DNA from: Uloborus plumipes
Taxonomy: Eukaryota > Arthropoda > Arachnida > Araneae > Uloboridae
Reading direction: 5' to 3'
Assembly (NCBI GenBank): GCA_038373865.1
Contig: JAXGGA010001680.1
Coordinates: forward strand, 62,001 to 126,000
DNA: 64,000 nucleotides
Shown: positions 1,610 to 46,542 of the stretch, piece by piece
Layout of the letters: the number at the start of each line of letters is the position of its first letter
Numbering within the stretch: position 1 is the stretch's first letter
Notes under the pieces: model-generated
What the model was told of the DNA's origin: nothing
The model's input: the letters and a program-made list of their open reading frames with translations, nothing else
Database searches by the model: none
Translations under genes and position numbers: made by a program

Positions 1610-1875
1610 AGATCTGTGACTGAAAGTACAGGAGGCTCGGCTGGTGCGAAGTTTGGCTTTAAAACTAGAGTGACTGGTGGTGCTATGAAGGGCGTAACCG
1701 GTGGATTGGGAAAAGTTTTTGGAGGAATCGCCAACATGGGAGGGTCCTCCCGTAAAAAACAGGAGGCGATAACCCTCGATTGCATCAACTGTTGGTTCCA
1801 GCAGGTTGGACTTTTTGGAAAAGATACTGCTATTACAGCTCAAGACACTGAGAAGGCATTTGAAAAATTCAACAA
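1610..1875 (+). CDS. Exon A1, module 1 linker and first half of p25-alpha-like domain
   Basis: The exon is 266 bases, entered in phase 0 after a CAG acceptor, and ends AAC AA before the donor GTTAGTATAT. It encodes a Gly-rich linker, then residues resembling ITLDCINCWFQQVG and FEKFN. It is the first coding exon visible. The sequence before it, from about 465 to 1580, is mostly transposon-derived, so the preceding exon is off the window. The polypyrimidine tract of its acceptor is weak. Confidence 0.8.
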
Positions 1876-4800
1876 GTTAGTATATGGTAGTAAGTTACCG
1901 CCCTTAAGCCAGGGCGAAGGCAGAGCTACGTGAAATTCACTGCCAGCTTGGCTATGTCATCCAGACCAACGCCTCCTAAATACTAAATGCCTGCAACTTT
2001 CTGGTTTTTAGCACAGAGCAAAATTTCGTCTTTGGTTCACGATACACTGGCATGTACCGCAGTTCTTCGAGAAAGAGAAATCAACGATTAGTTCATTTCT
2101 AAATTTAAATTTAAAAATCAACCAATCAAAAAATTTAATTCGAATATTGTTTGGATCCATCGCCAATAACTGCAAAATGCCCTTGGTTCACGATACACTG
2201 CCATCTAGCGGAGTTCTTCGAGAAATTAACGATTGAGTCATTTCTGAATTTAAATTTAAAAATTAACCAATCAAAAAATAACGAAGGCATTATCGGATTG
2301 CCGCAAGGTGGCGCTTAACGTGGAATCAACGACAGCTGTAACAAAGCAAATGTACTAGGCATTTAGTACTTAGGAGGCGTTGTCCAGACACTGCCAGTTT
2401 CATACTCATTGGAAACCATCAATCTGGCTTAGACAGTAACCGAGCTCCAGGCAGAAATGCTCTTAAAGAAGCTAAGAATGTTAAGCAACCGGGTAGATAA
2501 CTTAAAAATAGTACACCAGCGACTTAAAATGCTAATAAATATCTCACTGGTGTGCTACTTCTACTTTAGCTACTTTGGCATTCTTACCTTCTTTAACAGG
2601 ATTTCTGCCTCTAGCTTGGTTACTGTCTAAGTCAGACTGATGGTTCCTAATGAGGATAACGCCGCAATATCTGGATGACACGTGCAAGATGGCAGAGTTA
2701 TTTCAAGTCAGTATATAGTAGTTTATTTCTCTGCATGAATTTATCTACACATTGTACAAATAAAGTCCATCAAATATTGAAGTCATTCTTACTCCTGTTT
2801 GTAAAATACCAGCTTTTAAGTAGGATAAAATTATTCAAATTTTTTGAATCATATTTATTTTAAGATTTAAATTTTTTTAACTTATTGAAAAGTATTTAAC
2901 TAAAAAAAGGAACTATCTCTTTTTAATTACCTTTTTTCAGTATTTCAAGAACTTTGATTGTAAAATAACGACCCCAAGCCCAAGCAGTATGTCCACCTAC
3001 ATTTAGCTAAATAGGCTGAACACGAAGTCAAGCATCTTTGAAGAGTAATTCAATACGAGAAAAATATTTTACACAAAAGGAATGAGCTACTCAGAAGATA
3101 AATAATAACTAGTAGAAATTACTTTCCATTTTACATTTTTATTGCAGTTTATTCAAAATTGCGTTTGACAACAGATAGACTATTAAGGCTCCTGCATCAT
3201 AAAAATCAACGAAGCCAATGAATCATAATCTTTCAGTGTATAATATACTGATATTTTTTTATTACAAGTATTGACCCTAATTTTACTTTCCAACAGACCT
3301 AGCATAGAAATAGAAGAGTTCCAGGAGCTCGTCGAGGATGTTGCAAAGGAGGCGAACATCCCAGAAGACGTTATTGCTGCTAAGCTGGAAAAAGTTGATT
3401 TATCTGAAGTGCAAGAAAAAGCTGTAAGCATTGAGCTTTCTTTGTGAATCAACATTTTTAAAGCTGAAAGTACTGGGCTGGAGTTAATTTTAAAAACCAG
3501 TCACCTACTTTAAAAGATTCCATACATAAAAACTACCCAAACTTAGTGTTCGTAACAAAAACTTCTACTAGAACGCGCGTCGCAAAAGATTACAGACAGC
3601 CATTTCTTCTGATTTAAGAGCCAACTTATTGGGTAAGAAGTACGAAATAAATTATGATAATTTTTAGTACCAAAAAATGAAAATACAAAGACCGTCAACT
3701 GGCGTAACTTTAGACGTTGCGGGTAACTTAGGCCCAACAAACGGAAGGACATTATCTATACTGTATGAGATATACCAGAGTGATTATATATTATCCATTC
3801 GCTTCTGAAGCCTAATAGGTTGTAACACTGACATGGCCCTATCATTATTGGCAGTACTGATTGACTTTTCATTTATTGGGTCAATGGTACACTATAAAAA
3901 ACGCGAAAGTGACCCATGTTGACGACACCTAAGCAACTTTCTACAGTCATAGATTGAATGTGAAAAGCGTACAGTTAGAAAACTACGTAGAAATATAATA
4001 TTAAAACTAATTTAAAACTATTGCAATGACACTATGTCCAGTTAAGAAGACAAGTAGCTATATGAATTACAGGTGGCGAGCTATCTACTCTCAGATTGAA
4101 CAGCTATTTTAAAAATACCTATCTTCAATTAGAGCCACACACATTCGCAGTGATCATAGAAGATATAAAGTTTGTGCACAGAATAGGAGAGGTTTAAACT
4201 TTAATGCACATCAGCGTAAGTGGAATCGGCAGTAGTGAACTCATCGAATCAAAACTACAGCTAAGAAACCGATGGCAATCATGTCAACTATAGAGAAAGT
4301 TTCAGAGCGACTAATACTAATGAATTGAAGGGCTTGGAGGAAGAAGAGGTTATGTTACATTTTTAAAAATGAATACTCTGGACAATGGTAATTAATGGAT
4401 ACAGGTAAGCAAATAAAACTTGGTACACTAAACACGAAGATGTCATTAGATAATTTTCATACGCTCATTAACGACAAAACCAGAAAACAAAAAAGCTCAA
4501 CATCTGCAACAATAAAACTTTGAAGTTCAATTACTCGCATTTTCTATTTTGTTACATAAGTCCTTCATCTCCCAAGCCCTTCAATTTAGAGATGAGAGAG
4601 AGAAATGTAAATCGAGGAGAAAACATTTTGCTTTTTGTTCTAGTCTTATGCTAGTAAAGAGTAAAATCATGTTCTTATCACTATAAACGCAGACCCTTTC
4701 CCACATTGAAAAAAAAGTTTTTTTTTTCGGTTACTCAGTAGTGTATATTAGGACAATTTTCGCATTTTTGTTTCATTACGGCCTTAATACCCGTAGCCCG

Positions 4801-7800
4801 TAGGTACTAGTTGCCTTTGAAAAGTACAGCAAGTTTGGAAGCTACCTTGGGTAAAATAATTTTTTTCTCAATCTTCATCCATACATAAGCCAAAAACCTT
4901 ACAAAAATTTGTCTTTTCAGAAAACTATGACTGGCGGTGCAGGAGGCACTGCCGAAGCTAAAGTGGGAATTGAAACTGGAGTTGCTACTGGTGCCGTGAA
5001 AGGCGCAGCCGGCGGGATGGGGAAAGCTTTTGGAGCCATTGCCAAAATGGGAGGATCTGTTCAAATAAAGGATGGGAAAATAACTCTTGAAGTCGTCAAC
5101 TGTTGGTTCAAACAAGTTGGAGTGATTGGAAAGGACTCGGATGTTACTACAGAAGACACGAAGACGGAATTCGATAAATTCAACAAGTCAGTATATATTT
5201 CTAATAAAATTATCACAGTAGTGTGGTACACGTGTATTTTCTGGAAATATAGTGGCAATTTTCAGGTAATGCAGAACAAGAAACTGTTCACAAAATATCA
5301 TACGAAGCGAAATTATTTTTATTTATGTTTAAGTTTCTGGACTTTCCGAAAACTTAAGTACCGTAAAGTCGGGTTACTTGGACCCACAAGGAGGTTACTT
5401 GAGCCCACAGTAAAATGATAAAATCTGGGTTTGGTACTAGCATTAGAGACTGCAGAGTGCTTCTACCTAGAGGAGAAACGAGGAACTACGTGCAAGTCTT
5501 CAACTAATAAGTACCAAACCTAGATTTTATCATTTTACTGCAATGGGCTCAAGTAACCCCTTAGGGTCCAAGTAACCCAACTTTACGGTATAATAAGGGT
5601 ATAGATTTTTGCATGCGGTACTTCTTCACATGGCACTTGTTTCCGTTCATGAAATTAAACATTATTGATTCGATAAGATTTGATTTTTTTTATTTAGTCT
5701 TTGCCCATGTCATTGAAATAACTGACACTGAGTTTTTTTTTCATAGAGAAAGCATAACACTTAACGAGTTTCACCAGCTCTTGGAAAACATTGCAAAGAA
5801 GGTGGACATGTCAAAGGATGATCTTGTTACAAAACTGGAAAAAGCAGATTTATCAAGAGTGCGAGAAATAGTCGTAAGTACTGAAATTTCTCTATATCCT
5901 AAAAACTTTAATACATTATGTAATTAATTTCTAGAACAACTCTGTTTCTAGCCTTGAAAGTACTGAGTACTGCTTAATGGAGCAGAAAGTAGGTAGAAAG
6001 TTAAATCTCTAAAGCTCCGTTTTTATAAATGTTATAATGATGTGTACATAGCATCCGAGGTTGTTTTTATTCTTTCTCTACGATTTCTCAGAAAAGTGTA
6101 AGATCCAATTGAAAAGTTACTACATAGAGCATAAAGTAAAAACCAAATTTGTATATTAAGTTGTAAAAGTGTTTGGCAAGGTTCCCTAGTGATAACAAGG
6201 TTGCCAGTATTTTTTATCAAATTAATATTCGATGACTTTTTGGAAAGAACATGATTCATTTGTTAATAAAATTAATTATACCGTAAAATGGGGTGAATTG
6301 GTACACTTTTCAGCTTGTATTGTAAAAAAAGTAGTTAAAATTTTTTTTTCAATTTGATTTTTTGGGTAAAAACTTAGGTCTTGCTTTGATTTTGATATTC
6401 CAAGCAAAGACAAAACATGTTGAACCGTTATTATGTATATATAAAGGAATTTAGGGGTGTCTCGAATCACCCCGCTGATACGGGTCAATCGGAGCACGTG
6501 TTAAAATTTTTATTTTCTTCAATTTAACCTGTAATAGGTTTCACAAACATGAGTAATATGGATGGATAGAATAAGAACAGATAGTTACTGTCAAACAAAA
6601 GTTTATTTCTACAACAGTAAACGTTTATGATTTGTCAAAATTTAAAACAATTTTGAATTTATGAAAAATTAATTTTTCATAAATTCAATTTTTCATAAAT
6701 TCTAAAATTAATTTTAAGAAATGCTTTTGAATTGAAATAAAAAAATTTACAAATATGTCCACAAATATGCTTTTGTCCTTAAAACTAGCATTTGTGGCTT
6801 GGCTTAAGTTTTTATAACTTCTTCTGGGATGAACGCTGCCTCTTCTTTAGTTTCGTGAAATGTCTGGGTTTCGGGGATTGATTGTCCTGTAAGATTTTCC
6901 CACTTATTCATCACTGTCTGTGTGCTGGACTTTTACTACGTAGAATATATATGACTTCTAAGTAAAAAGAAGTCTCCTGGAGCAAAAATCTTTTGAAATC
7001 TGCAATGTTCTGTCATTCTAAGAGCTAGTTGCTCACGCGAAGGAACAAACAGCAATAAATCCTTGTCCTTGTCTTGACTAAAAGAATTGGGATTAGAATC
7101 TTGATTTTGCAAACAGTTTCCTTGAAATAAGTTTGAGTTGGAACAGCATAACAAGGTGTTACAATTCACTCAGGTGTTCCATTTCCGCAAATCCTTATCC
7201 TATGACATTATGAAGAATTTTTCGTTTTTATGACACAATTAAAATATGTTGTCTCGTCTAATGTGGTACTCTGTTGTTCATATATATGCATAATTAAAAA
7301 ATACTATTCTTACCAGGAAAGTACTCGACTTAAGTAATAATGAAAAAAGTTAAAAATGGTACCATTCGAAAGAGCATACTGAAACATGTTTTTGACCCAA
7401 AGATCAAGTGCCCTCGTCCCCTCGTTTTCGAGATAAGGGATCTTAAAGTCGGCCGAAAAGTAGCCAAATTTGAAGACTTGGCAAGAAATTGAAGCTACCT
7501 CCCAATTCTCCCTTCCGCTGCCTTCTCGGCATCGCATCGTTTCCATGTTTGGTCATTTGCAAAGAAAGTAAAAGATGTTTTACGTTAACTACGTGTATGA
7601 GTCAAGATAAAGAATGCTGGTCAAAACTGATGTGGAAAGCAGAGTGCTTTATCCAGAGGAGCAAAAACATTGCAAAGAAGTTAAAGTGTTATCTTTTTAC
7701 GCATGATAACAATACATTTTAAAATTTTAGTTATTTTAAGTTTCTTTACTGAACTAAGTTATATGTGTTAATTATTATACGTTAAAATATATTGCACGTG

Positions 7801-10800
7801 TTTCTAAATGAATAATTCAGGATAATTAAATAAGTATGAAGAGCAGCTAATATAAGCTTATGTACAAAAAATGAAATAAATAGTCTTTGAGGTAGAAATT
7901 AAATTGTCATGGATTATGATATCAGTTCTCATTTCAAAAAAAAAAAAAAATCGATACAAGAAGTTTCACTATCTGCTCACTCTTAGCAAAAACATTTATT
8001 TTTTTAAATTGAAATCGAGAAAAAATAAATAGAAATTTTAAAAAGAAAACGAATAGTAAATATCAATAACTGCAAAATTATATCCATGTCGGAAATTACA
8101 TCAAGGGTAGAGGGAAATAGTTATTTCCATTCTTAAAATATACTAATAGAGTCGACATTCATTGTAAAAACCCACGTCGTTCGAACAAAATTGGTCACTG
8201 TAGCGAAAAGTCTCTGTAACGTAAATGTACAACATATTGCATGTTAATTTCGTATTGTTTAAAAACACTAGAATAACTTTTACTAGTTCTGCTTTATGTT
8301 CAACAGGTAGGAAAAGACTAACAAAATTGTAAATCTATGCAAGTTTTAGCTTAATTTTCTGTAAAAGTAGAAAATAGGTGAAAAAAATCATGAAAGAAGA
8401 TCTGAAGCATTGGAAAAAAAACACGCTCAAAACAATTGAGTCGAAAAAGCACAACTTAATAAAAATAATAAAATACAGAGAAATTTAAAGTAGGAAAGTT
8501 GGGTTTTGAGCTGCGGAAACTGTTCCTGTCAGTCTGTGTATTGGCCAGTTCTTCTGCCCACCCCCCGGCAATAACTTGTGAGTGCATAGTTCGATTCGAT
8601 TTTTTTTTTTTTTTTTGAGCGAAAGATTTCAGTGAGGACAATGCACTCCCATATTCGACTTTTTGATTTGAACAATATATCCATTTCGAATATCCGTTTT
8701 TTTTTCGTCCTCCTTTATAACTTTTGAGGGAACAAGTCCGATTCGAGCAAACAATTTTTTCTTTCGAAATATCTCAGAGAAAACACCTCATTCCTGTTTG
8801 ATTGTTTTATTTGAACGCATTTTCACTAAATTTTTAGCAGGTCAAAAAAAAAATTGCCCCCCACCCCCCCGAGCCTAGTCCCTAATAACTTTGCTTGAAC
8901 AGTCTTATTTGAGCACTTTTTTTTTTGAAAGACCATTCCTACATACCCAGTAATAGGGTTTGCTCGACCCTAAGTTCTGGTTCAAAATTAAGACCAGAGC
9001 GCTCTTCAGGGCCCTATCCCGGTTAAATCACGAAGCTGTGGTAGGTACGGGGGACCCTGGAGTATGAAATGAAAAAAAAAGGTGACAAAATACTCAAGGG
9101 AACTTACCTTAAATTATAGGGGACCCACCAACAGAAAAGTGGTTTGAAAAAATTTATATTTGCAATTTTTACAATTAAAAAACCCAAACATCACCCCGTC
9201 CCCATGCTACAGAATTGTGCGAACACTTAAAAAAATGACGAAAACAGAAAAACAGGAGGTTCAGTTGTCTCCTGGGACCCTTAAACAAGGGACCTGTTTT
9301 AATCGCAAATAATAAGACAAAATTTACTTTTGATGTTGTTTAAAATTGTTTTTCCTCCTTAAAAAGCTCTCTGCTTTCCATGTCATAGGCTTGATAGTAG
9401 CTTTTGGCTTAAACACGCACAGGTAAAGTAAAATACTATTGTAAAGCCGTCTTCCACAAGCTTTGCAGATGACCAAAAATGGAAATTAGGATTCCTGCTA
9501 GACGCAAATAGTGTAATCGCGCCGCAGCTTCCAGTTTCATTATAACTCGCTAAAATTGGCGAATTTTCAAAAAAAAAAAAAAAAAAAAAATCAGCTGACT
9601 TTAGGATCTTATATTTCGATAACGGGGGCGCGAGGGCAAAAACGCATGCTTCCAGAAACATGTTTTACAATACTCTTTCAATTGGTACTCATTAAAAAAA
9701 AATTCATTATTCCATGATCGGGTACTTTCCTGGTTAGATTTGAAGTATGAAGGGGTATGTACGCCAATACAAAGTTTTGTAGACCATGAAAACTTGAGGT
9801 TTTTTAGCGTCCCGCTTGCAGCCTTGCACAGAAGCCAATAGTGTTTGCCAGAATGACAAAAATAGTTTTCCCCTACGTCTTATAATAATATTACCTTCCT
9901 AAAAAATTTAACTGCCAAAAATACCCAACGATATATTTATGAAGAATTTCTTTGTATGAACAGGAAGTTTTGTTCCGAATCACCGAGCTGTTCCTATACA
10001 CCCCGTTTTATGGTACCCAACTTCAAAGAACTATTTTTAGAGAACTTGAAAAGTAACGGTTGTCGTTGCGCGCCAGGCCACAACCTTTTTTCAGCCAGGT
10101 GTAAACTGTTGCAATATGTTGGTATTTCTACGTTCATGAAAGTTATGCATTATTTATACATCAAACTATTAAACTAAAGCTATTTTTTTCTGAACATGAT
10201 AAACTAAGGTTGCTTATGTAAAATTTTCATCATATACGACTTGCCAGCTGTTAAAGATAAGTTCAAATGAAAGTACAGGACCGTCATTTCGAATTTTTCC
10301 AGGGGCGGGACAAAAGGGTGTATACACAATGTAAATTTGCCAAAAAAAAAAAAAAAGGCAAAGACTACGCCTACTTACATGCAAATACATTGATTTACAA
10401 AAATCAGGGGGCCCCCTGAACTCCAAAATGACGGGCCTGAGAAAGAAAGTGGTTTACATCATGTGCTCAACAAGGATAGTGATAGTTTGTTGCATGGAGT
10501 TTTAAAGCCAAAATGCAAAATATTTCCGCTTTGAGAAAGGTATACCTTGCTACCTTAAAAGACATGCTTGCAAAACTTCTGCTCTACTGATTAAACAATG
10601 CTCAGTATTTTTATTCACTGCAATGATTTAAAAAAAACTAGAAAGTTTTGAGGTTACTTTAGTAGGGTGAAGTGGGGTAATTGCGTACTTGGGGCAAATG
10701 TGTACTCATTTGAAAAAAGGAGGAAAAACTGAAGCTAGCTGCTATCTAGTGGCACCATTTGGAAGCCTGTAGGTTAGTGATCACTTCTCAGATGGCTGCA

Positions 10801-13800
10801 CCTATGTCCAGATAATAAGGCTTTATCAATCTGCCTCCATTTCGTCAGGTGTTTTTTTCGTTGTGAATCACATTTCGTGGACTTTTGTTTACAGTGCTGC
10901 AGGATCACCATTTTCAGCTAAATTTGATTAGTTCTTGGATAAATCACTTGAAGGTAAGTTGTTTTCCTCATTAATGGCTGCAAAATAGTTGAATTAATGT
11001 TTACCTATACATACTGTTGGGGTATACATTTACCCCGGTTTGTTTTCAGTCACGGGGTAAATGTGTACTTTTTCCTGGGGCAAATGTGTACTACAGTAAA
11101 CATTTACCCTAAGCAAAATTTACATAGAATACACATTCACCCACTCCTTATTAGACTTTTACAATCTTATTAGGGCGTATATTTTTGTTCCCAAATGTTT
11201 GATTGACCTCCTCACAATAAATTAATTGTAAAAAATGGAGAAAACACTTTCGTTTACCCTCACTCTGAAGATATTAGCAAAATCGATGGCAATGCTATTG
11301 TCACCAAGCTTCCAGAGCCATCTGAGGGAAAAAGAGGTGTTTTGATATTCCCAGCTAAATTTTCCTCCTACAACATGGGTTAGCAGAGTTGCTGAAGGTC
11401 TCACTCAAATTTGCTATTCTCATTTTGGCCAGGACTCGCCACTATAATTCCTTTTTTTTTTACATTCCAAGATACACATTTTGGCATGTTCTTTTCAATT
11501 TTGCTATTAAAGACGTTTTTTCCCCTTTAATCCTATGCTTTGTACTTTGTTTTCACCTTTGTAAACTGTACCAATTAAGAGAGGACAGAAGGTGGGCAAC
11601 AAAAAAGTGCATAGCTTCCGCTGGAGAATTCGGAAATAAAAAAATCATACACAGAATTTTTTGTCCTTAACTGCTCTTTTGTACTTATTTGGCCCAACAG
11701 CAAAACAACTGAATTGTATAGGATTTTCATGCGGCGTACACATTTGCCCCAACTTGTGGGGCAAATGTGTACTTCAGAGATGGTTTTAAAAACATAGCAA
11801 TACAACCATGAAAAAAATAGTTTTTTTAAAATTCTTTGGGTGATTTGTAATCTAGAGAAACGCCGATAAAAGATGATATAAAAAAAATAAAATTCTGAAT
11901 ACCCCCCTCTCCACCAGAGACTTAAGAAGTTGAATTTCGTCAAAACAGGTACACAATTACCCCACTTCACCCTACACCACAATTTTCTTCCACACGTAAA
12001 ACAAAACATCTCTAAACATTTCAAATTTTCAGAAAGCTACAGTTGGTGTTGCAGGAGGCATAGCTGATGCAAGAGTTGGAGCTGAAATTGGAGCTACCAC
12101 TGGTGCCGTGAAAGGTGCTGCAAGCGGATTGGAAAAGGCTTTTGGAGCCATCGCTGACATGGGAGGGCCTACTCAAGCAAAGGATGGGGAAATCTCACTG
12201 GACAACATCAATGCATGGTTCAAACAAGCTGGAGTGATTGGGAGGGACTCTGCAATTACTGTCCAAGACACTGTGGAGGAATTTGAAAAATTCTCCAAGT
12301 CTGTATATGTTTTACTTTGTCATACACTAAACATTTTGTGTGACCTTACTCCATAAATACGGTGGCAGCAGTGCTGCCTCCGTATCCTCAATTTTCTTTT
12401 TAATTCTTATTGGGCTACTTTACGGACTTTACATTTTCCGGACATAGTCTATTAACCGGTATATTGCCATGCTAAGCACAAAAGTGGTATATGGAGAGAA
12501 TCACAAACTGAGATATTGTTGTTTAAAGTTTTGGCGTCTCCATGTATTTGATTCAGGAGATACTTAAAAAAAAATTTTTTTTAAATATTTCCCTTTCTCA
12601 AATGACCATAAAACATTGCATTTAGAAAATGTACGTCACCAAGAGCCACCTGGTGGCCATTACTCAATTTTGTTAAAAAGTGCAGATACGACTTTTATGC
12701 TTAGCACGGCAGTATATGTATTCATTCTTTTGTGTGACACCATTACCGAAGGATGTCATTACCAAGAGATATTAGTCACCCAGTTTCCAGATCAGATGGA
12801 GGCACCTGTTCTTCCTTTTAGCGAGTCTGCACTAAAAATAATCGAAAAAAATATGGGAAGAGTACTCAAAGACTAAAAATTACTCGAGGGATTTCTTGCA
12901 GTTAGGTTTAAGCCAGCACCTTTAGAAGTAATGTACCAACCTGTTACCACTATAACATTTTTCTGCGAGGTTTTTGGTAAACGAGTACATATATTTGCTT
13001 ATTAATTACTGTTCGACTATGTTTTCCATCGAAAGGTGTAAAGCGTTAGGCTTAGACGCGATTCTATCTAAAATAGTCTAGCACGGAAATAGAAAATATA
13101 GAAGAGGGTGATTTTTATATGCGTGTTTTCTTCATTTATATGCTACTCTGGTTTGAATTTGGGAAAATGGCCTTCAGCAAACCATTATATGCATGTTCAT
13201 ATTAAGAAAGGAAAAGGTAAATGTGAGCTCGCAATAGCCAAGCTGAATGCTACGAAACGAGTGGCTAGTCTGTGGGTGTGGGGGGGGGGATGTATTGAAA
13301 CTAAAATACTTGATATAATAAACTAAATTAAATATATAGCTAAACTAAAATGCTACATATAATGGGATTTATAGTCGTGTGAATAACATCTATTGACCGT
13401 TTTTTCTGCGTAGCACAAGAATGTATCTTTTTTTTTTTTTTTACAAAAATCAAAACATTAAATTTTAAGAAAATGATTTTATATTTAAGCACCTTTACTC
13501 TGTGACAGTTAAATTACTTATTTTTGACAGTATTATAATTCTTATTGAAAAATACTAGTTCAAAATTAATTTTAATGTAGACCCAGCATAGCAATAGATG
13601 AGTTCTACCAGCTTTTGGAGGATATTGCAAAGAAGGAAAACATATCAAAGGACGATCTTGTGGCTAAACTAGAAAAAGCTGATTTATCCAAAGTTCAAGA
13701 AGAATCCGTAAGTTTTTTTACCTACACTAAAAAACTAAAAATTATTTTTATTATTTAAAAATTAACGTGCTAGAAGTTGTGAAAAGATGTCTGTGGCTGT

Positions 13801-16800
13801 CCCAAGTCCAAAGCAACCTATGTCACCTACGGCTTAGAAGCATTCCCGAAAGTTTTTTTATTACCATTATAATTCCTAAAACCTTGGCCACCACTAATAT
13901 TTCGTATTGAGAAATTCATTAAGCAGCCTGTTTGGAGACCTTGTGGTGGTACGTAGAATTTGGGATGGTTTAAACTGTTTGTCAAAAACCTATTTTACGC
14001 TTTATTACATTGTTTAGCAAACTTCTGAAAATATTTTTCATATTTTATGTTTCTTCTAGAAATTGATTCCCAAATATGGAGGCAATCTCTAAATACAGTT
14101 TTTAATCAATTAAAGCAGCAGTAGACGGTTGACCACCAGTAAACCACCTCAATTTAGTAAAGTTAAGCCTTACATGAAGAAATTTAAAATCCTGCCACGA
14201 GAATTACTAATTTTGTGAAAAACGCGAGTTCGTGATTTTGAGAACGCTGATATTTTATTTTGAAGTAGTTCATCTAAAATTTTCTCCTCGCATTAAACTG
14301 TTCGTATTTAAAAATTCTTAATCTCAGTAAAAATTTTTTATTCACTTTGAACGAAAGGAATGGACTCCAAAGGAAAAGATGAGAAAAGTGCAGGGGTAAA
14401 ATTGATTATCTTTTCATTTTCAGAATTTTTTTTCTGTGGTAATTAAGGAAAACAAATAGCTACAATATCTTTATCATTGTTCGGTAATATTTCTCTAATT
14501 AGACTTTTGAGTTTCAATTTTTGTTAAGGTTTTAATTATCGGTTTGTGGATGCTGAAAATTACTTGTACGATTTAAATTTATTCCCATGATTTTAACTAG
14601 CACATTTCAAAGCTAAAATAATTTTCGTTAAAGTCATGTCGCTTGGTTTTGGCGAATATTCTACCTTACATCTTGGCGAAAATAACGTTTTCATCACGCC
14701 ATGTTTGGTTTTCTTTTTCTTACTTTACATTTTAAGGAAACTTTTAACGTTTCTCATTTAATCGGCAGATTTTATTTCGTGTAATGTGCAACATTTTCAT
14801 GGAGTTTTTATTCCTGTTTTATGTAATTGATGGATTGTTTTGATTTAACTTTTCCAATTGTTTTTGGCTTCATCTTTTGTGTTTGGAGCATATTTCTAAT
14901 ACTTTACCGGCTTAATTTAACTATTTGATGGAGGACATTTAGATAATTGGGAATCTGGTACGGTTTTCAAATTTTGGGCCATAATTATTTTATTCTAGTA
15001 ACCCTTTGTTTACATGTACGAAGGAACGATTTTCTTCGCCCATTATGCATTGTTGCCAAAGATTTGACGCCAATGGAGACATAGACTGCCGATTCCCAAT
15101 TATCGAAATCATCCCGTTTGATGAAATTTTTTTTTTCATTTAAGCGGAGCTTTTATTCCCATTCAAGGACAAAGGATAAAATACCACGCTTTTAAAACAG
15201 TGACATTTCTTTTTTAGTCAGTAATTCAACTCTTGTGTTGGGAATTATTTTGTACTTTTTTGTTTGATGAATCCAAAAAGCGTGATTTTAGTTTTATTAT
15301 TACTTTTTCGAAAATTCGCATGCCTTGAAAAGGTTTCTTAAAAATTTTAGCGTGCCGTAACTGGAATTGTAGGCGGGGTGGCTAATGCTAAAACTGGACT
15401 TGATGTTGGAGCTGTCACCGGATCTGTGAAAGGGGTGGCCGGTGGATTAGAGACATCATTCGAAGCCTTCGCTCATCTTGGAGGTAGTAAGGAAGTCGCC
15501 ATCACTCTCGATCAAATTAAGTTATGGTTCCAACTGGTTGGACTGACTGGAAAAGATGCTATGATTACTGTCCAGGAACTCACAACGGAATTTGAGAAAT
15601 TCGCAAAGTCAGTATATAGTTGATCTTTAGTACTTCTCCAGAATTCATTAATATGCAATGTCAATCATATCTGTTTTAGAAATCCGCTTCGAAAATTAAA
15701 TTTTTGATTAATTTTCATAATTGATTTAATTTTTATTGTTAGATAATTTAGAGATTATTCATCAGTTGTAAGAAAGCAGATGCTAGCATACGGGAAAGTA
15801 GGATCGTTTAGCTCTGAACAGAACAACCTTAATTCTTTTTAAAGATGTTCGTGTGTCTACGTTTTAATTCGCTTTGAGTTATTTTAAGAATTATTTCTCA
15901 TTAAAAGAAAAATCCTTAAGGTGCTATACAAATACTCGTTTTAATTTCTCGTACAGTTTTATATAAAGTTCGACAGCGTATAATACTTTACCTTCCTTTA
16001 CCAAACGCATGCTTATCAAGTAATCTAATGTTGCTAACTTCAAGCGTCATTGAAAGAAAAGAAGCGGCATGCTTTATTCATCAAATGTTTTGAACAGGGT
16101 CCAGCAACAGAACTTCCAAAACATTAAAAACTATTTCATGAGCCAGAATCATTAATATATTTCTTGACTATTGTCCGACCACGGGTAAGCTGGAAAAGCT
16201 AATATGCGGTTTACCGGCGGAAATGGGAGCATCTATTAGTTTTTAGGGCTGTCGGTTTTTGCAGATGCGTGGTAGCCTCTAAATTAAGCTGAGACACAAT
16301 GAAATATGAAAATCACGAGCATCCAATTTTTAATTTTTCCCTCATCCATATAGACTTGTTTTTGCTGGATGTTTACTTAATCCAAAGCATCTGTAGGTCA
16401 AAGAGTGTGTATGTAAATTTCCAAAGTTTTAATTTTACTCAGTTTTGAAAATCATAGCAAGTAGGTAACGTCAGCCACTGTTCAGTGTCCATACGCTGGA
16501 AGAGCAGATTTATGGTGTTTCTCACATGACCCTTGCCAGCCTAAAAACGGGTCTGCTAGCATTTTTTGCCCAGTTGTTGGTTTTTTTTTGTTCTCGTACT
16601 GTCCTTGAGTGGTTGGCATAAACGTGGAATTCCAAAATTCTCCACAGTCAATCGAAAGGGGACCAAATCGAGGGAGCACTCTGAGTACTCGAAATCATTT
16701 CTTATGGAGATAAGTCATTTCGTCAAAAATTTCCCTCAAAACAGCCACGGTCGCAGTGGGAGTCGCTGCTTCTGTTGCAAGCAAATGCCACTTGAGTAGT

Positions 16801-17271
16801 GAAAAAAAAAAAAGAGACAGAGTATCTAATAATGAGATGCTACCAACCTGATATGACTTTAAAAACAGTCTAAGAAACAACTTTAGACATCAACCTATAC
16901 TATTAAAGATAAATAAAAAACGGACACTGTTATTCAATATATAACTTGTGTTTTGTCTTCTTATAAAATTAGTTTTTGCTCTTTTAATGCGAAATACAAT
17001 CCTTCTGTTGATTTTGTATAGGCCCAGCTTAGCGCTCGATGAGTTCTACCTATTCCTGGAGAATTTGGCAGCTTCGAAGAAAATGTCAAAAGATGAACTA
17101 GTTTTACAACTGTCCACAGTTGACGTAACAAAAATACAACAATCAGGTGTAAGTACCAACTGTTGCTTAATCTCAGTTATTATATGTACTAAATTGTATA
17201 AATCGTGCAGAAAGTGACGAACACGCAACTGCATTGCTGAAATGCTTATAGAATACTGCAATAGTAGTAGC

Positions 17272-17317
<46 letters not shown>

Positions 17318-20300
17318 GCATTATTTTCCACGAAAAGTTACCATTTTGTCTCGCACGTGAAGCTCGTGTATTTCATTAAAAAGTAGTGGTTATAAAGTAG
17401 TGATTAATGAAATTCTGTTGGTTAAGAAATTTCAAACAGGTGTAGGATTTCTTATACATTTTTTTTAATTACAAGGTAGCATGTCAAAAAATTGCTAGAT
17501 CGTGTTATCATTGTTGTCAGAAAGCCTTGCTAATGATAACGCATTATCATTGATCACTTTTTAAAACCATGCAACAGTGTAGCAAAAGATATCATAAAAG
17601 AGATTTATCAAAAAAACCTGATCTTATTTTACAAAAAGTTTTGTTTCCATCATTGCCCACTTCAGCTTAATAGTATAAAAAATTAATTAATGCTTTTGAC
17701 GCCGAATTGATGTAGTTGACGCATTTGAAAAGAAAAATCACTGTATACTGTGATTTTTCCCAATAAGACCGTAGTTCACTTGAATAGGACACTGGATTAG
17801 GAGGAGGTGAATATGATCTATGATCTTGTGCTGCATGTGGCTCATATGTGCACCAGCTATACACAGTAGGTTCAAAAAAAAAAAAAAAGCAGAAAATAAC
17901 CAATTACAGAGCTTTAACTGAGAGGATTGAAATTTCTCCTTTCCATTGAATTAAACATGAATATTCTGATGATTTTTTCTTGTTTATCAAATGAGGTTTG
18001 TTATATATAAATGTTTTTAAGAATTTTTTTATTATTTTTAGCTGGATGGTACTTTTTGCTTTGTTTTTGTATCTAAACCTCGCTTAAGATAATCTTTGCT
18101 CAGGGTCTGCGTCATTAGGGGCCCACCTTCCCAATATGGTCTACTCGTCGTTCTTTAGTCAAAACAGATAATAAGCATAATAGAAACTTATACTTTTACT
18201 TGGAATTATGTTTTCTTATTTCTTATGAGTTAGCTTATGAATGTAAAAAAAACTGGAGTTAATTGAATCATAAATAAGCAAAATAGTGGACCAATGGCAA
18301 ATTCCTTATTTTGCTCACTTAGATTACGAAAGCAACCCAAAACAGCTCATCACCAACTACTCTTTTCTATTTCCCAAAAGAGGTAAATATTGTAATAGAC
18401 AAAAGCTGTCTAAAAAAAAAATGCGATCATATGTACATTAAAAATTTTTGTATAAATAGAAAGTACATATGTATTTATCACCCGGTCTGCCAGGCCGGGT
18501 ATGGGACCGGGGGTTGTGGCAATCGATCAAAATTCGCAATTTTTCTTAAGATATCCTTCAGATATCTTTAAGATTTTCTGCAGTTTTGGTGCACAGTTGA
18601 AGTTTTTAAGACAGTATATGACAAAGGTTTTTAATTTTATTCCTGGGCAGGTTCATTCTATTTTTCAGGTGAGGGGGGGGGGGTATTAACATTTTGACGG
18701 CCACCGCCTGTTTTTTGGAGGGAGGTACCCTCTTGCTGATTACGTTGAGACATGTAACAGACAGACATCGACCGTCTCGGAAACACTAAAACAATTCATT
18801 CTAATAGTAGTGGTTTAAGCAGTGGTGACCATAAATGGCGCCGTAAAGGGGGAGGGGTCATAATGTATATTACCGTAGTTGCAATTTTTCAGGTGATTCT
18901 TGTCACAGGTGATAGTCGGACAGAAAAGTTTTAACTATTTTGTTGTTTTTGGGAGGAGCTCCCTAATATTATGGTGAGGGGTGGGGGGAGCAACGTCTTC
19001 TTTAGGGGGGAGTGCCCCTTGCTAAAGTGTCTCAATAGTAAGACATCAGACATAGAGCAACCGTCGACGTCTCGAAAAGCACTCCAGCAATTTATTCTAA
19101 TAGTAGTGGTGTAAGCAGTGGTGACCATAAATGGCGATTGGGGGGGGGGGGAGGAGGATTAAAGCTCAAGATGCGCCGTTGAAATTTTTCAAACGATTTT
19201 TGAAAGGGGTTGTTGTTTTTTTCTGGGGGAGAATCTTCCTGTTCGGGGGGGGGGGATTGCTTAGTAAAATTGGGGGGAACCCCTTTTTTGGGGGGAGGGG
19301 GTGACTACTCTTGTGTACTCTGACTACTAAGACATGCAATAGCGATCAGCCATCGACCATTTCGGAAATCATTTTAGCATTATTTCCTAAAAAAAGTTTA
19401 AGGGTTGGTGTCCCAAAATGGCGGAAGGGGTTTCGGTACCCGTTTTCTACCTACAGGTTTTAAAATGCGCAATTTGGAGCAAAATATAGCTCAGTCCCCT
19501 TCGTTGTCTGAGAAAAATCTGAAGATTTTTCAAAGATCTTCCTGCATAATTCTGAAGAAATTCTTAAAATATTTCGAAGATTTTAGGCTTAGCGGCTCAA
19601 AACTGCAGAAAATCTTAAAGATATCTGAAGAATATCTTAAGAAAAATCGCGAACTTTGATCGTTTGCCACAACCCCCGGTCCCTTACCCGGCCTGGCAGA
19701 CCGGGTGATAAATGTTTGCCTACATATGTACTTTCTATTTATACAAAATTTTTTAATGTACCTATGATCGCTTTTTTTATGTAGCCAGTCTCGGTCTATA
19801 AAGTTTAAAGCTCAACTTATTAACGCCACACTATACTGTAATTTTTAAATTATTATTTTTATTTTCTCCAACCAGTTTCTCTGTTTTTTTTTCAATCTTC
19901 TATTTTATGATTTTGTTAATTTAATTCCGCACGTTCGAAATATTAAATTTTTTTTAATGTACTGGCAATGTTCAGTTAAGATTTCTTTTCACTGCTGGAC
20001 GTATTTTTGTTTAGCCCGGTAGTGGGACAAAAAAAAAAATGTTGTTTTAGTAAAACTTTACAGAAATTGGAAGCATTTCGAACCTTTTGAAATAACAATG
20101 TCGAAGCATGGTCGTTGTATTCGATTCTCGCTGCGTTAATTGAACCATTTTCTTCATAAACCAGTTAAGCCCCAAGCTCTATGTAAAATTTCGAAAAAAA
20201 AAAAAAAGAAAGCATCACCATAGAAGAATTTTCAATAAGAATTTCCATATTTTAAACTTTAAGAGATATACGTATTTGAGTAAATTTCTTTTAACCAACA

Positions 20301-23300
20301 GGGTTAACCTATCAAATAATTTATTATGGTGTTATAAATGTTTTCCTAATGTTAGAGATTTTGACATTTTAGTGGTTTCTGAAACATACAAATATTACGT
20401 TGAACGTATTATATAGAACGTCTGATTCAAAAACGTCTACTATATCTCTACAATAGAAATTTAGTAACCTAGAAGATTTTCTTTAAAAAAAATAAATAAT
20501 TAAAATAAATAAAAAAAAAAGTACGAAATTATTTACTTGGACTTCAGAACACGATCAAGTAGCATGATGTCATACGTGTTTGGAAATTATTGTGGTAATA
20601 TTGAATCACAATTACCACCACATTGAATCTTAGTTTTTTTCCACTAGAGTCATCTACTATTTACTACGACTGACCTAGTAGTCACACCCCCAACCATCAC
20701 CATTTCGGATGGAATTTTATAGAGTTATACATCTGCCTTTGTCACCAACATATTCAAATTTTGAGCTTCCAAGATCTAAATCCTGAGAAACCATGGATCT
20801 CTCAGACAAAGGGTTCCAAAATGCCGGGACAGCTTTACGCATTGAATTGACGTTTTGAGGCCAAGCTCGCAGAAAATTTAATTACACTAGAGCTCTGAAA
20901 TTTGGGGAATTTGGGGTGTTGACTACGGTCAATACGATCTGATATTTTAGAGATTTTATAAGTAACAATTTTTGTAGAATTTTTGGTTAGCACTAATTAT
21001 CACAAACCATTCAAATACATGGACTTATGATTATATTAAATGTAAATGCATTTAACGATTACAGTAGCAGTGTTTAAATATTTTAGATCTGTAAAAGATG
21101 TTGGCATCCTATATGCCTACCAAAAAAAATCTTCATAAAAAATAACGCCTTTTTACTGCACTGATGCTTAAGGTAAGAAGGGACTTTCAGATGAGCAAAA
21201 AACGGTCAAAAAATCGGCTCTTCTTTGATGATATTTCTAAAAACTATATGATTGAAATACATGTTATTGCTATTGTAAATAAATAGCTTTACCTTATTTG
21301 TGGTGAATTTGTATTCAAAACTATTTTAATAATGAAATATGCAATAGTAAATGTTGATTTTCTCAAAACACAATTTTGCGCGTGTTTTCAAATTTCATAC
21401 TGGTCCAGTGTAAAAAAATATTATTTAAATTTGCTAAATTTTTTTTGCCATGTACTTAAGAGGTTTGTTAACATTTTGTTGGGAAGGAATTTTCTATTTT
21501 ATTAGCTGTGTCGAATGTATTTGCTATGTTTTATTGAAATATGGATATCTTTTACAAAAAAAAAATGTAGATTTTAGTTTGTTTTTTTGTTCTTTACTTT
21601 TTTCCACAATATAAGAAAAAGTACTCCCAGCATTTTATTTTCTGATGTTTTATGTTCCACATTTTGCTTGTATTTTGTAATTTTAATGAAATTTCAGGCG
21701 CGAGGAATAATATAGAAAAAGCGTTAACCCTACACTGCATGATTTTTTATTTTTCTTAGAAAAAAATATGTGTTTGTCAACGTAATAAGAAAACATGGAA
21801 AAATATTTAAAAAAATTAAACTCTAATTTTTTACCACTTTCTAATTAAAAATAGTTTTGTTGCCAAATGGCTACACCATGCATTCAACAGATAAAAATGA
21901 TTTTAAATGATAGTCTTGAAATTAGTTGTTTTTTGTAAAAAAATAGAGGAATTGAACATTTGGTGCACTGTACTCTTGTAATCCTATACATTTTGACATT
22001 TTACATCATTGTTTATTTGTACTGTGTTCTTTCCGATGATCAATTCTGTCAAATCTGATATCTTTTGGAGGCTCTCTCGCGAGCGCTCTTTTTTTTTTTT
22101 TGGTTTATAACTATTTCCTCTGTAGCTAATGGTCTCCCTCCTTTTAATACGCTTTTATTAACTTCACATGTGGGTTTGTTTGTATGTATGTGTGTAACTC
22201 TGAATAAAAGTTAAAATTTACTTTCTCTGGAAATATAAAAGCAATATATTTAATATTATTTTTAATACTAAAGGTTAAATTGTATTGCATGTTGATGTAT
22301 AATAAGTGCATGTAAACTTAAGGGTGGATATTCAGTAGTTTTGAAAATCAGAGGGAAACCCGTGATGATCACAGCGCATTCCTATATAAAAGCGTGTTTT
22401 TTAGTTTTTTTCAAAACTATATTTTAAAATTGTTAATAGTTTTATTTGTTCGTGTAAGCACAACGTTTGTGCTAACTGAAATCTAAAATGAACACGTTTT
22501 GAAGGCTTTTCCCTATTGATTTTTTGTTTGTTCACTCTCTTGAACATCAGCTAAGCATTGATAATTGCGAGGTCTAATAAACGGTAGAACAGCCGAAAGT
22601 ACCACTTTTGGGTCCGCATGATTATTTTATACCTTCCAAAAAGAGAAAGAAGCTAGCGCGAAACATAAACAAAGCACATACTTCATGAACTACAGAGAGG
22701 AATCGAAGTGTTCTCTAGATGCTTACGGCATAATGTTGCCAAATGGCTACAGACATGAATTATGTCCTAGATTTTTTCCAAATAATTATTTTGATGTAAG
22801 ACGCATCTTAAACGAAACATAAATGTTTATTTTATTCATGTTATTTTTTTAAAGACAAATAAAAATGGTTCATTGTAAAAAATAATTTCAAAACTTGGTA
22901 GTTTAAGTGATTTTAGAAACTATCCATATGGATTCATTTAAGAGCATGTAACAGACCAGTGCTGCCATGTATGGAGGATAAATGGTGATAATTTCTTTAA
23001 ATATACCCAATACTTGCTTTTTATGCATTGAGTTGCCTCATGACTACATTCTGCTATTCATAGGGAGGACAAATTGTACATGTATCCAACTGGCAACATC
23101 ATGCAGTGTAGGGTTAAAATTCAAATTTTAAATAAAAAAATTTGATTTTAAAATATTTCAACGAAAATTTTGAAATGTGTTAGTATGAGCAGCATATAGC
23201 TATGCTGCAAATTTCAAAGAAATTCATTGAAAATTGCTAAAGAAAAAAATCATAGTCCCTTGTCGCCTTAAATAAGCTTCAAGCAATTTTATTTCTTTAA

Positions 23301-23886
23301 CTCTTTCCACAATAAGAAATAACTTATTTTTCTTATCACAAAGGCCTTTTACTTTCTTATACATTTAATGTGCAGAAAAAAGTATTTTTTTAATTTTGGA
23401 GGAATTATATTTTTTAGGTGCGTTGAATCAATTTTGACGTCTGTGTGCACGTGTCAGTGTGCACGACCAGTTTTTGTGGCCACTCTAGTTAAAAACTGTT
23501 CAATGAAAGTGAACGAAAATCGTTACACAGATGAACCCCTATGTGAGTTGGGGCACATTAGTTTTTGGCCCTAATACTTAAAAGGGGATTAAGCAATCGA
23601 AGGTTTTCATCTCTATGAGGGACTGCATTTTTTTAACAAATGAACGGCCGCAGAGACAACAGAAGATATAAACTAAACAAACGAATTCCCAATGCTTGAA
23701 GCATCAAGTTCTAAGACTTTTTTTTCGGTATTTGAAAAATGAGTAATATTAATAAAATTAAAAATAAAATGTTACTTTAATGGTCAAAATTTTATGAGCA
23801 AATTTTTTTTTCAGGGAACCACAACTGTTACGAAGACTACAAAAACTACTGGAACAGTAGGTCCTAAGAAGGATTATGAAGAATGA
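1610..23886 (+). CDS. Tandem p25-alpha (TPPP-like) repeat protein, 3' part of a nine-exon-visible gene
   Basis: Nine exons join in one frame: 1610-1875, 3297-3423, 4921-5186, 5747-5873, 12033-12298, 13581-13707, 15351-15607, 17022-17148 and 23815-23886. They give 544 codons and a TGA. All junctions are GT-AG and alternate phase 2 and phase 0. The product is four modules plus a Thr/Lys-rich tail. Each module has a glycine-rich linker of about 45 residues, then a segment with an ITLDxINxWFKQxGVIGKD-type core, FEKFNK, and an EFxQLLExIAKK / LVxKLEKADLS helix. This layout resembles the p25-alpha domain of tubulin polymerization-promoting proteins, where the similar core is followed by a TITFEEF-type strand and helix. 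TPPP proteins bind and bundle microtubules, but whether this one does is inference. No signal peptide or membrane segment is visible in the part present. The start and any earlier modules lie left of base 1. No AATAAA follows the stop within 200 bases; a weak GATAAA variant lies near 24027. Confidence 0.8.
1967..2382. mobile_element. 416-bp MITE inserted in a hammerhead repeat
   Basis: Terminal inverted repeats CAACGCCTCCTAAATACTAA / its complement are flanked by TCCAGAC on both sides (1960-1966 and 2383-2389), a 7-bp, perhaps worn 8-bp, target duplication. Inside is a 149-bp direct duplication beginning TGGTTCACGATACACTG at about 2034 and 2183. It interrupts the minus-strand hammerhead repeat. 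Confidence 0.65.
2383..2452 (-). ncRNA. Decayed hammerhead ribozyme motif (minus strand)
   Basis: Read on the minus strand: CTCGG, TGTC, CCAGA, then TTGATGG in place of CTGATGA, then GAAAC, TGGCAG, GTC and TCTGG. The missing 3' arm continues at 1966-1933 across the MITE insertion. Stem I arms CCAGA/TCTGG can pair. The core changes C3 and A9, so it is probably inactive. It lies in the first visible intron of the p25-alpha-like gene. Confidence 0.5.
2611..2690 (+). ncRNA. Decayed hammerhead ribozyme motif (plus strand)
   Basis: The order is TGTC, TCAGA, CTGATGG, a TTCC..GGAT stem II, AACGC in place of GAAAC, then ATA, TCTGG, GACA. It has the same layout as the pair at 52.1 and 52.9 kb but with core changes. 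It faces the minus-strand copy at 2383-2452, forming a head-to-head inverted pair centred near 2530. Confidence 0.45.
3297..3423 (+). CDS. Exon B1, module 1 second half
   Basis: The exon is 127 bases. The first A completes a Lys codon with the AA from exon A1. It then reads PSIEIEEFQELVEDVAKE and on to LEKVDLSEVQEKA, ending in phase 0 at GTAAGC. It corresponds to the strand-plus-helix second half of a p25-alpha domain. Confidence 0.8.
4323..4586. repeat. 264-bp TIR MITE, copy 1
   Basis: Ends AATTGAAGGGCTTGGAGG and CCCAAGCCCTTCAATT are inverted repeats. The same ends flank a stretch of almost equal length at 61313-61575, in the opposite orientation. The interiors match in part. No ORF. It sits in the intron between exons B1 and A2. 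Confidence 0.65.
4921..5186 (+). CDS. Exon A2, module 2 linker and first half of domain
   Basis: The exon is 266 bases, preceded by a good pyrimidine tract and TTTTCAG, and phase 0. It encodes a linker with TGAVKGAAGGMGKAFGAIAK, then ITLEVVNCWFKQVGVIGKD and FDKFN. The donor is GTCAGTATAT. Reading through the donor meets a stop after a further stretch with no similarity to the module, which supports splicing here. Confidence 0.82.
5361..5588. repeat. 228-bp MITE with about 85-bp TIRs and TA flanks
   Basis: The left arm CCGTAAAGTCGGGTTACTTG and the right arm ending ACCCAACTTTACGG pair for about 85 bases, leaving a short loop. TA lies on both sides (5359-5360 and 5589-5590), so a mariner-type origin is likely. 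It is in the intron between A2 and B2, 172 bases after the donor. Confidence 0.7.
5747..5873 (+). CDS. Exon B2, module 2 second half
   Basis: The exon is 127 bases after a T-rich tract and CATAG. It encodes ESITLNEFHQLLENIAKK and ends SRVREIV before GTAAGT. It has the same length and phases as the other three B exons. Confidence 0.82.
8650..8936 (+). repeat. Satellite-like units related to the 37.3-37.9 kb array
   Basis: Two and a half degenerate units carry the order ATAACTTTTGAGNGAAC, CCGATTNGANCAAAC, CGAAA(G)ATCTC, CATTCC, TTGATTTGAAC. The same roughly 145-bp unit is tandemly repeated at 37322-37908. Confidence 0.55.
8954..9070 (+). repeat. 5'-truncated tRNA-derived SINE
   Basis: This matches the 3' part of the full SINE at 39066-39362, from GGTTTGCTCGACCC to the GGGGGACCCTGGAG end, with a few differences. 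A short A run follows. The tRNA-like head is absent, as expected for a 5'-truncated retrotransposed copy. Confidence 0.7.
10275..10439. repeat. 165-bp MITE with CAGG ends
   Basis: The left end CAGGACCGTCATTT and the right end AAATGACGGGCCTG are inverted repeats. CCAGGGG and CCCCCTGAA follow inside. The form suits a hAT-type MITE, but I could not see a convincing 8-bp duplication. Confidence 0.5.
10665..11972. mobile_element. 1.3-kb TA-flanked TIR element with repeated GGGGCAAATGTGTACT motifs
   Basis: Ends GGGTGAAGTGGGGTAATTG and CAATTACCCCACTTCACCC are perfect inverted repeats between TA dinucleotides (10663-10664, 11973-11974). The motif GGGGCAAATGTGTACT or its complement occurs about six times inside (near 10692, 11023, 11056, 11078, 11738 and 11758). 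The length equals a mariner but no transposase ORF is present. It ends 60 bases before exon A3. Confidence 0.7.
12033..12298 (+). CDS. Exon A3, module 3 linker and first half of domain
   Basis: The exon is 266 bases after TTTTCAG and phase 0. It encodes a linker with GAEIGATTGAVKGAASG, then ISLDNINAWFKQAGVIGRD and FEKFS. The donor is GTCTGTATAT. The preceding intron (5874-12032) is one of the two longest in the gene and holds several MITEs. Confidence 0.82.
12461..12717. repeat. 257-bp TIR MITE (TGCTAAGCA family)
   Basis: The left arm TATTGCCATGCTAAGCACAA and the right arm TTATGCTTAGCACGGCAGTA are inverted repeats flanked by TA-rich sequence. It starts 160 bases after the donor of exon A3. 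No coding potential is recognised. Confidence 0.55.
13581..13707 (+). CDS. Exon B3, module 3 second half
   Basis: The exon is 127 bases after AATGTAG. It encodes PSIAIDEFYQLLEDIAKK, then KDDLVAKLEKADLSKVQEES, and ends at GTAAGT in phase 0. It is the closest of the B exons to the group consensus. Confidence 0.82.
14940..15115. repeat. Dispersed repeat with GATTCCCAATTATCG ends
   Basis: GATAATTGGGAATCTGG at the left and GATTCCCAATTATCG at the right are inverted. The interior (AACCCTTTGTTTAC, TTTGACGCCAA) is shared with 34580-34690 and, in the other orientation, 63400-63560. Similar but older sequence extends left to about 14530. Confidence 0.5.
15351..15607 (+). CDS. Exon A4, module 4 linker and first half of domain, three codons shorter
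   Basis: The exon is 257 bases after TTTTAG and phase 0. It encodes GLDVGAVTGSVKGVAGG, then ITLDQIKLWFQLVGLTGKD and FEKFA. The three missing codons fall between the linker and the ITLD core. The donor is GTCAGTATAT. This module and its B exon are the most diverged of the four. Confidence 0.82.
17022..17148 (+). CDS. Exon B4, module 4 second half
   Basis: The exon is 127 bases after TGTATAG. Its first G completes AAG (Lys). It encodes PSLALDEFYLFLENLAASKK, then LQLSTVDVTKIQQSG, ending at GTAAGT in phase 0. It keeps the length and phase but loses the KLEKADLS run seen in the other modules. Confidence 0.8.
17274..17316 (+). repeat. Poly(A) run followed by a partial MITE
   Basis: About 43 uninterrupted A residues are followed at 17317-17460 by one arm of the MITE that is complete at 40427-40642 (CACGTGAAGCTCGTGTATTTCATT). 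A long pure A run suggests a retrotransposed tail or replication slippage. Confidence 0.5.
18423..19771. mobile_element. 1.35-kb element with about 175-bp TIRs and G-rich internal repeats
   Basis: The left arm (GCGATCAT, TGTATAAATAGAAAGTACAT, CACCCGGTCTGCCAGGCCGGGT, AAGATATC) recurs inverted at 19600-19771. Between the arms are about three diverged units of about 290 bp, with TCTAATAGTAGTGG, GTGACCATAAATGGCG and runs of up to 12 G. No transposase ORF. It occupies the B4-terminal exon intron. Confidence 0.7.
20641..21030 (+). repeat. Diverged relative of the 40.8-kb foldback arm
   Basis: The order GAGTCATC, AGCTTCCAAGATCTAAATC, CCAAAATG, CAGAAAATTTAATTACA and TGTTGACTACGGTCAAT parallels the left arm of the foldback element at 40813 onward. 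It is heavily decayed. 19772-20640 and 21031-21723 hold no feature I recognise apart from A/T runs. Confidence 0.4.
21728..23113. mobile_element. piggyBac-like non-autonomous element
   Basis: CCCTACACTGCATGAT at the left and ATCATGCAGTGTAGGG at the right are perfect inverted repeats, each next to TTAA (21724-21727, 23114-23117). A TTAA target and a CCCT terminus are hallmarks of piggyBac elements. A subterminal motif, TTGCCAAATGGCTACA, occurs near both ends. No transposase ORF; a separate dispersed repeat (22090-22370) is nested inside. Confidence 0.75.
22160..22370 (+). repeat. Dispersed repeat, copy nested in the piggyBac-like element
   Basis: It shares TTTGTTTGTATGTATGTGTG, AACTCTGAATAAAAG, TATTTAATA, ACTAAAGGTTAAAT and GTGCATGTAAACTTAAGG with 53190-53420 and 57954-58110. 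In the latter place the Gypsy element splits the copy. Confidence 0.6.
23815..23886 (+). CDS. Terminal exon with Thr/Lys-rich tail and stop
   Basis: A T-rich tract and TTTTTTTTCAG at 23803-23814 precede 23 in-frame codons and TGA (23884-23886). They read GTTTVTKTTKTTGTVGPKKD and end YEE. Entry is phase 0, matching exon B4. A basic, Thr-rich tail after the domain is also usual in TPPP proteins. The 6.7-kb intron before it is the longest in the gene. Confidence 0.7.
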   Translation, partial: GTTTVTKTTKTTGTVGPKKDYEE

Positions 23887-31155: not shown

Positions 31156-31216
31156 ACTTACTTGGGAATTCGTTTAAGTTCAGTTTCTTTCTTCCCGCGT
31201 TTTCGGCACCAAAATT

Positions 31217-46532: not shown

Positions 46533-46542
46533 CAGTGAGACT

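Follow-up and report, generated by a model that had tools for sequence, protein, structure and literature searches.

An array of two-exon cassettes, each encoding a truncated p25-alpha (TPPP) core, at a probable arachnid locus

Proteins that carry two or three p25-alpha domains have been described, and in the consulted parts of the corresponding reports Metazoa are said to lack the double short type (PMC12731214, PMC3498115, PMC10304595). In the source sections at hand, the short-type TPPP is also said to be absent from animals, and the truncated TPPP to be confined to holometabolous insects. According to the available portions of PMC8180608, the C-terminal exon is required for the binding of TPPP to microtubules, the truncated fly TPPP, which is devoid of this last exon, very probably does not bind them, and a phase-2 intron within a Lys codon is common to human TPPP and the truncated fly protein. 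As stated in an excerpt of PMC5225419, the CORE of human TPPP without its termini dimerises, as seen by enzyme-linked immunosorbent assay (ELISA) and bimolecular fluorescence complementation (BiFC), and spreads through the cytosol, where it is not aligned with microtubules. Here, a stretch of 64,000 bases is described (the window, positions 62001-126000 of contig C1680) that includes the 3′ end of a series of cassettes; each comprises two exons and encodes one truncated p25-alpha core.

Nine exons on the forward strand, between window positions 1610 and 23886, join in frame into 544 residues with a sole stop at the end (Table 1). The join consists of four two-exon modules, M1 to M4, and a 23-residue tail; this arrangement had been proposed in a preliminary description of the window, and its coordinates proved exact. 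The exons measure 266 and 127 bases in M1 to M3 and 257 and 127 bases in M4, the terminal exon has 72 bases, and GT..AG borders are possible for each of the eight introns, the joins being drawn from splice sites and phase alone. Every exon 1 is entered in phase 0 and left in phase 2, within a split Lys codon, and every exon 2 is left in phase 0. The last intron also holds a weak exon-2-like stretch by an A-run (window 20187-20252, E 0.02-0.05), which is either a relic or a chance match.

Contig C1680 measures 144,014 bases, and the analysis also covered both flanks of the window, 62,000 bases on its 5′ side and 18,014 bases on its 3′ side. Over the entire contig, the module profiles match 12 exon-1 and 12 exon-2 stretches and no others, strictly alternating and all on the forward strand, with no match on the minus strand of the 144,014 bases. 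The modules are numbered m01 to m12, M1 to M4 of the window being m09 to m12. The earlier suggestion of at least four modules that continue to the left was borne out, and four proved an underestimate, as the contig has eight more on this strand, 5′ of the window. All 24 module exons can be read as AG..GT, with the phase pattern 0-2-0 in each of the 12 modules, their boundaries having been chosen to fit this pattern. The split codon is Lys in nine modules, and Met, Leu, and Met in m01, m02, and m03. The 12-module join extends for 1569 residues with a single stop, and none of the 24 module exons contains an internal stop or a frameshift. Exon 2 falls into three blocks by its length: 112 bases in m01-m04, 130 in m05-m07, and 127 in m08-m12. 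When the whole contig is scanned for the tail, the terminal exon scores 121, the next best stretch 31, and the minus-strand null 32.

Table 1. Exons of the array on contig C1680. Coordinates refer to the window for M1 to M4 and the terminal exon, and to the contig for m01 to m08 (exon 1/exon 2).
Feature	Coordinates	Strand	Evidence
M1 (m09) exon 1, Gly-rich segment and first half of p25-alpha core	1610..1875	+	left-out profile, E 1.6e-30
M1 exon 2, second half of core, phase 2 in, 0 out	3297..3423	+	left-out profile, E 5e-10
M2 (m10) exon 1	4921..5186	+	left-out profile, E 4.1e-35
M2 exon 2	5747..5873	+	left-out profile, E 1.5e-13
M3 (m11) exon 1	12033..12298	+	left-out profile, E 2.3e-35
M3 exon 2	13581..13707	+	left-out profile, E 1.5e-16
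M4 (m12) exon 1, acceptor is an in-frame TAG	15351..15607	+	left-out profile, E 1.9e-27
M4 exon 2	17022..17148	+	left-out profile, E 9.2e-8
Terminal exon, 23-residue Thr/Lys-rich tail and stop	23815..23886	+	sole exon of its kind on contig
m01 exons 1/2	2754-3181/4060-4171	+	module profiles
m02 exons 1/2	4919-5169/6356-6467	+	module profiles
m03 exons 1/2	12590-12828/13595-13706	+	module profiles
m04 exons 1/2	14741-14970/15934-16045	+	module profiles
m05 exons 1/2	16975-17222/21046-21175	+	module profiles
m06 exons 1/2	22501-22724/24036-24165	+	module profiles
m07 exons 1/2	27533-27756/29543-29672	+	module profiles
m08 exons 1/2	49494-49759/50931-51057	+	module profiles

The same genome contains an ordinary TPPP gene of the long type, on contig C6676. 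Its exon 1 ends at GCTAA/GTAAGATT, within a Lys codon (phase 2), its exon 2 (29630-29762) ends in phase 0, and its exon 3, from position 34073 on, encodes GKGRGKEGR; the joined gene matches PF05517, the p25-alpha family, with 154.9 bits over profile positions 2-153. The modules have the same structure, which is that of animal TPPP genes: a phase-2 intron in 12 of 12, in a Lys codon in nine, and an exon 2 that ends in phase 0. They lack the C-terminal exon with GxGxGxxGR that is the hallmark of the long type, and their matches to PF05517 are confined to positions 1-94 of its 153. In a PF05517 search of the whole genome (1.42 Gb in 25,906 contigs), exon-3-type stretches were found only on C6676 and C15713, and none on C1680. 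The comparison with C6676 indicates that the matches stop at position 94 because the modules comprise only exons 1 and 2 of TPPP. With the core present and the last coding exon missing, each module corresponds to a TPPP that lacks exon 3, and the array as a whole is a multiplied truncated TPPP. Since the cassette is in phase 0 at both ends, its tandem duplication in frame is possible; a symmetric cassette of this kind may have been multiplied in this way with the reading frame intact.

Scanned singly against PF05517 (curated cut-off 22.6 bits), M1, M2, and M3 score 22.8, 27.5, and 27.1 bits, and modules above the cut-off amount to seven of the 12 (m01, m05, m06, m07, m09, m10, and m11). The join of M2 and M3 scores 46.9 bits (E 4.5e-12), and three reversed cores, used as a control, give no PF05517 row. 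By eye, the LxxxF(Y)xxF motif at the start of the domain is strict in m01, m02, and m12, and a Phe is present at the same place of helix 1 in all 12 modules. The PF05517 scores support the assignment of the modules to the p25-alpha (TPPP) family, and the family call made at the outset is upheld by M1 to M3, with M4 below the cut-off. Several results weigh against this assignment: m04 and m12 (M4) remain below the cut-off (20.0 and 17.1 bits), m02, m03, and m08 give no PF05517 row at E ≤ 1 when scanned singly, and a structure predicted for exon 1 only has a predicted local distance difference test (pLDDT) score of 50.5 and no Foldseek match at 1e-3. The search of PF05517 with the 544-residue join, which the preliminary description had advised, also returns no row at E ≤ 10. 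Because M2 and M3 together match strongly, this blank is taken as an effect of the hmmscan filters on a long and repetitive query. In the PDB, searched by sequence, TPPP appears at E 0.04-0.28 for M3 and 0.12-0.35 for the module profile, none of which is significant, and an NCBIfam scan of two modules finds no family. No protein was found at 1e-3 with the 544-residue join among 7995 candidates of approximately 300-950 residues, proteins above approximately 950 residues being outside the range, or at 0.01 with the module alignment among 3067 candidates of approximately 72-229 residues from the same database, which includes spider proteins. A scan of viral contigs gave 146 pattern matches, 0 of them confirmed.

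The likeness among the modules was evaluated with profiles built without one module and run against 2916 six-frame segments. The left-out modules are recovered with E 1.9e-27 to 2.3e-35 for exon 1 and 9.2e-8 to 1.5e-16 for exon 2. Chance resemblance was rejected, as these profiles recover the exons of each of the four window modules. The four window modules are 43-63% identical, the ratio of nonsynonymous to synonymous substitution rates (dN/dS) is 0.33-0.43 across their six pairs, and blastn (1e-3) among the eight window introns finds no match. Thus, the duplications are old, and the protein sequence has been constrained by purifying selection.

Some of these features are shared with described proteins. 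As in the truncated TPPP of the Drosophila CG6709 type (consulted parts of PMC8180608), there is a core without the last exon, encoded by two coding exons with a phase-2 intron in Lys. The CG6709 type, however, is a single-core protein (approximately 106-128 residues) that is reported solely from Endopterygota, whereas at least 12 cores are chained here, 12 of them in frame. Multiple p25-alpha domains are also present in the double short, double long, and triple long TPPPs (PMC12731214) and in the triple short p25alpha protein of Micromonas pusilla (PMC3498115), so that the initial statement that TPPPs normally carry one domain was too strong. Nevertheless, these proteins have two or three domains and come from choanoflagellates, Tunicaraptor, an annelid, a sponge, a chytrid, algae, and other protists; neither four or more domains nor Gly-rich or KRPSS linkers are reported in the consulted parts of these two sources. 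In the literature covered, which included few subscription journals, no protein with four or more p25-alpha domains was found. TLP2, from the ciliary tip of Tetrahymena (PMC11642885, in excerpt), resembles the array in its repeated TPPP-like cores with linkers and offers a model for a chain that spans protofilaments. It differs in that its TPPP-like domains number two and are accompanied by an ARM domain and a long helix, and its Lys/Arg contacts with tubulin are not generally kept here. The ordinary TPPP on C6676 shares the phases of exons 1 and 2 and the split Lys, but it has exon 3 with GxGxGxxGR and a single basic core. With 12 or more truncated cores in what is probably an arachnid, and with a cassette that is exactly the first two exons of the ordinary TPPP gene, the array shows a clear route, through a symmetric phase-0 cassette, to the multiplication of the dimerising core without the microtubule-binding tail, and it makes testable whether the core has a role by itself.

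The 12 cassettes likely belong to one gene, with one transcript that runs off the 5′ side of the contig. This reading is favored because of the phases, the order, the single terminal exon, and the good onward donors after m04 (GTAAGT) and m07 (GTAAGC). Four separate single-module genes in the window were rejected: M4 cannot start by itself, since the in-frame TAG at the acceptor of its exon 1 only allows an internal exon, and there are no stops at the exon-2 ends before good donors. The frame 5′ of each window exon 1 (four of four) meets a stop before any ATG, and the third codon of M2 exon 1 is an ATG.

A division into several neighboring multi-module genes, for instance m01-m04, m05-m07, and m08-m12, is possible, although we consider it rather doubtful. 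Such a division would follow the three blocks of exon-2 length and linker type, as well as a tree in which m05-m07 (98/98) and m08-m12 with a module from contig C8075 (88/52) form groups, and there is an ATG near the 5′ end of m05 and a gap of 19.8 kb between m07 and m08. By contrast, a terminal exon of the known kind occurs only once on the contig, the good donors of m04 and m07 mean that their exon 2 splices onward, and other start or stop exons were not identified, no gene finder having been run. A single gene is nevertheless made less certain by the same gap and by the three module types within the array, by the poor donor (GTTAAG) that ends m08 exon 2, and by the 2753 bases ahead of m01, in which no start exon with a first ATG was found; moreover, agreement in phase would be expected anyway after duplication.

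The best explanation overall, held with moderate confidence, is that the truncated-core cassettes form one gene for an oligomerising scaffold, the scaffold function being the weaker part and proposed by analogy. In the product, the TPPP cores would follow one another in a long chain and may associate mutually or with TPPP. This function is favored because the human CORE dimerises without alignment to microtubules and because the cores here are neutral to acidic, with a net charge of 0 to -10 in all 12 modules, whereas the ordinary core in this genome has +8. Microtubule attachment, if any, would take place through the basic linkers of m01, m02, and m03 (net charge +15, +4, and +6) and not through the cores. 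In m08-m12, the Gly-rich segments have Gly at every fourth residue and would pack as helices. In the four window modules, Gly pairs at a spacing of four number 21 versus 12.0 in column shuffles (P 0.028, eight spacings having been tried), a modest excess, and the Gly-zipper families of Pfam stay below their cut-offs (E 2.4).

The preliminary description had proposed a multivalent microtubule binder, in which each core would dock on the lattice in the way that TLP2 sits between protofilaments with its two TPPP-like domains. This function is conceivable but unlikely. It agrees with the position of the TPPP-like domains of Tetrahymena TLP1 and TLP2, which sit on microtubules according to the available part of PMC11642885 and so speak against a scaffold, with the presence of TLP1 among the chains weakly matched by the module profile (E 0.14), and with the strongly basic linkers. 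Against it stand the charge of the cores, the absence of the microtubule-binding C-terminal exon, and the human CORE, which alone is not aligned with microtubules in cells (PMC5225419, in excerpt). In addition, the place aligned with K382 of TLP1 is Lys in only three of the 12 modules (Gln in five and Glu in four), and that aligned with K403 is Glu or Asp in the four window modules, in a by-eye alignment that derives from the same E 0.14 match and is not significant. Multivalent binding is in this way not supported for the cores, by their charge and missing exon, but it is not refuted in view of the TPPP-like domains of TLP1 and TLP2 and of the three strongly basic linkers.

It is very improbable that the array is decaying or untranslated, in the manner of a pseudogene: a few weak splice sites and the possible exon-2 relic at window 20187-20252 could suggest it, but the 24 module exons lack stops and frameshifts, the frame is open for 1569 codons, and the dN/dS of the window modules points to constraint. 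Least credible of all is another helical or EF-hand-like fold, as hinted at by a match of the M2 core to EF-hand_7 (E 1.2e-4, below its cut-off), by the 544-residue join, which gives RHH_4 above its cut-off (33.3 versus 25 bits) and no PF05517, and by a best PDB chain at only E 0.04; EF-hand and ribbon-helix-helix identities were rejected, as PF05517 is the top family of every singly scanned module with any above-cut-off match, and the place of the intron, its phase, and the split Lys are those of the ordinary TPPP gene.

Searches of the genome with single exons find further copies on contigs C4602 (minus strand), C8075, C21105, and C19225. The first of these holds a second array (C4602:52042-86365, minus strand; parts read, 40001-70000 and 76001-86465) with ten exon-1 and nine exon-2 stretches, seven of which are nearly alike, with KDVRP linkers. 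By eye, a phase-2 GT closes nine of its ten exon-1 frames; exon 2 of its last module was not found in 40001-52000, and the one module of the ten that was scanned gave no PF05517 row. There is one exon pair at C8075:55793-57914, akin to the Gly-rich type, and two exon-1s with one exon-2 at C21105:3704-8408, while the copy on C19225 is nearly identical to m08, and this contig is perhaps allelic. In the tree mentioned above, which has 25 rows, m01-m04 group with the C4602 modules (15 rows, 85/88), a fork that is not among the two starred branches and that bears on C4602 as a candidate 5′ continuation of C1680. It is a long shot that C4602, with at least 10 modules, and C1680, with 12, are parts of one gene with at least 22 cores and well over 2,500 residues, whose product would act as a repeating ruler along or across a special arachnid microtubule array, such as the sperm axoneme, with the basic linkers on the lattice and the Gly-rich segments assembling the far end.

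Other elements lie beside the array. Rfam and tRNA scans of the window found none. On the minus strand, window 25879-31173 holds a Pao-type long terminal repeat (LTR) retrotransposon with an unbroken frame and DUF1759, Peptidase_A17, reverse transcriptase, and integrase domains. Its best named relatives are mostly from spiders (Araneus, Nephila, Parasteatoda, Oedothorax, and Stegodyphus); the first twenty also include a termite and a scorpion. As mobile elements may pass from one host to another, the host is taken, on the strength of these relatives, to be probably an arachnid and is assigned no more closely. Frames of an LTR retrotransposon with reverse transcriptase, RNase H, and integrase domains are found at 53594-57745 (plus strand), and what by eye is a remnant of a mariner-like transposase at 59057-59614 (minus strand), with no Pfam row at 1e-3. 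A tandem array at 44939-46841 has a unit of approximately 306-316 bases with inverted-looking halves. Finally, a 144-base tandem repeat occupies window 31496-31786 and, by eye, its unit recurs at the left contig end, at approximately C1680 1341-1600.

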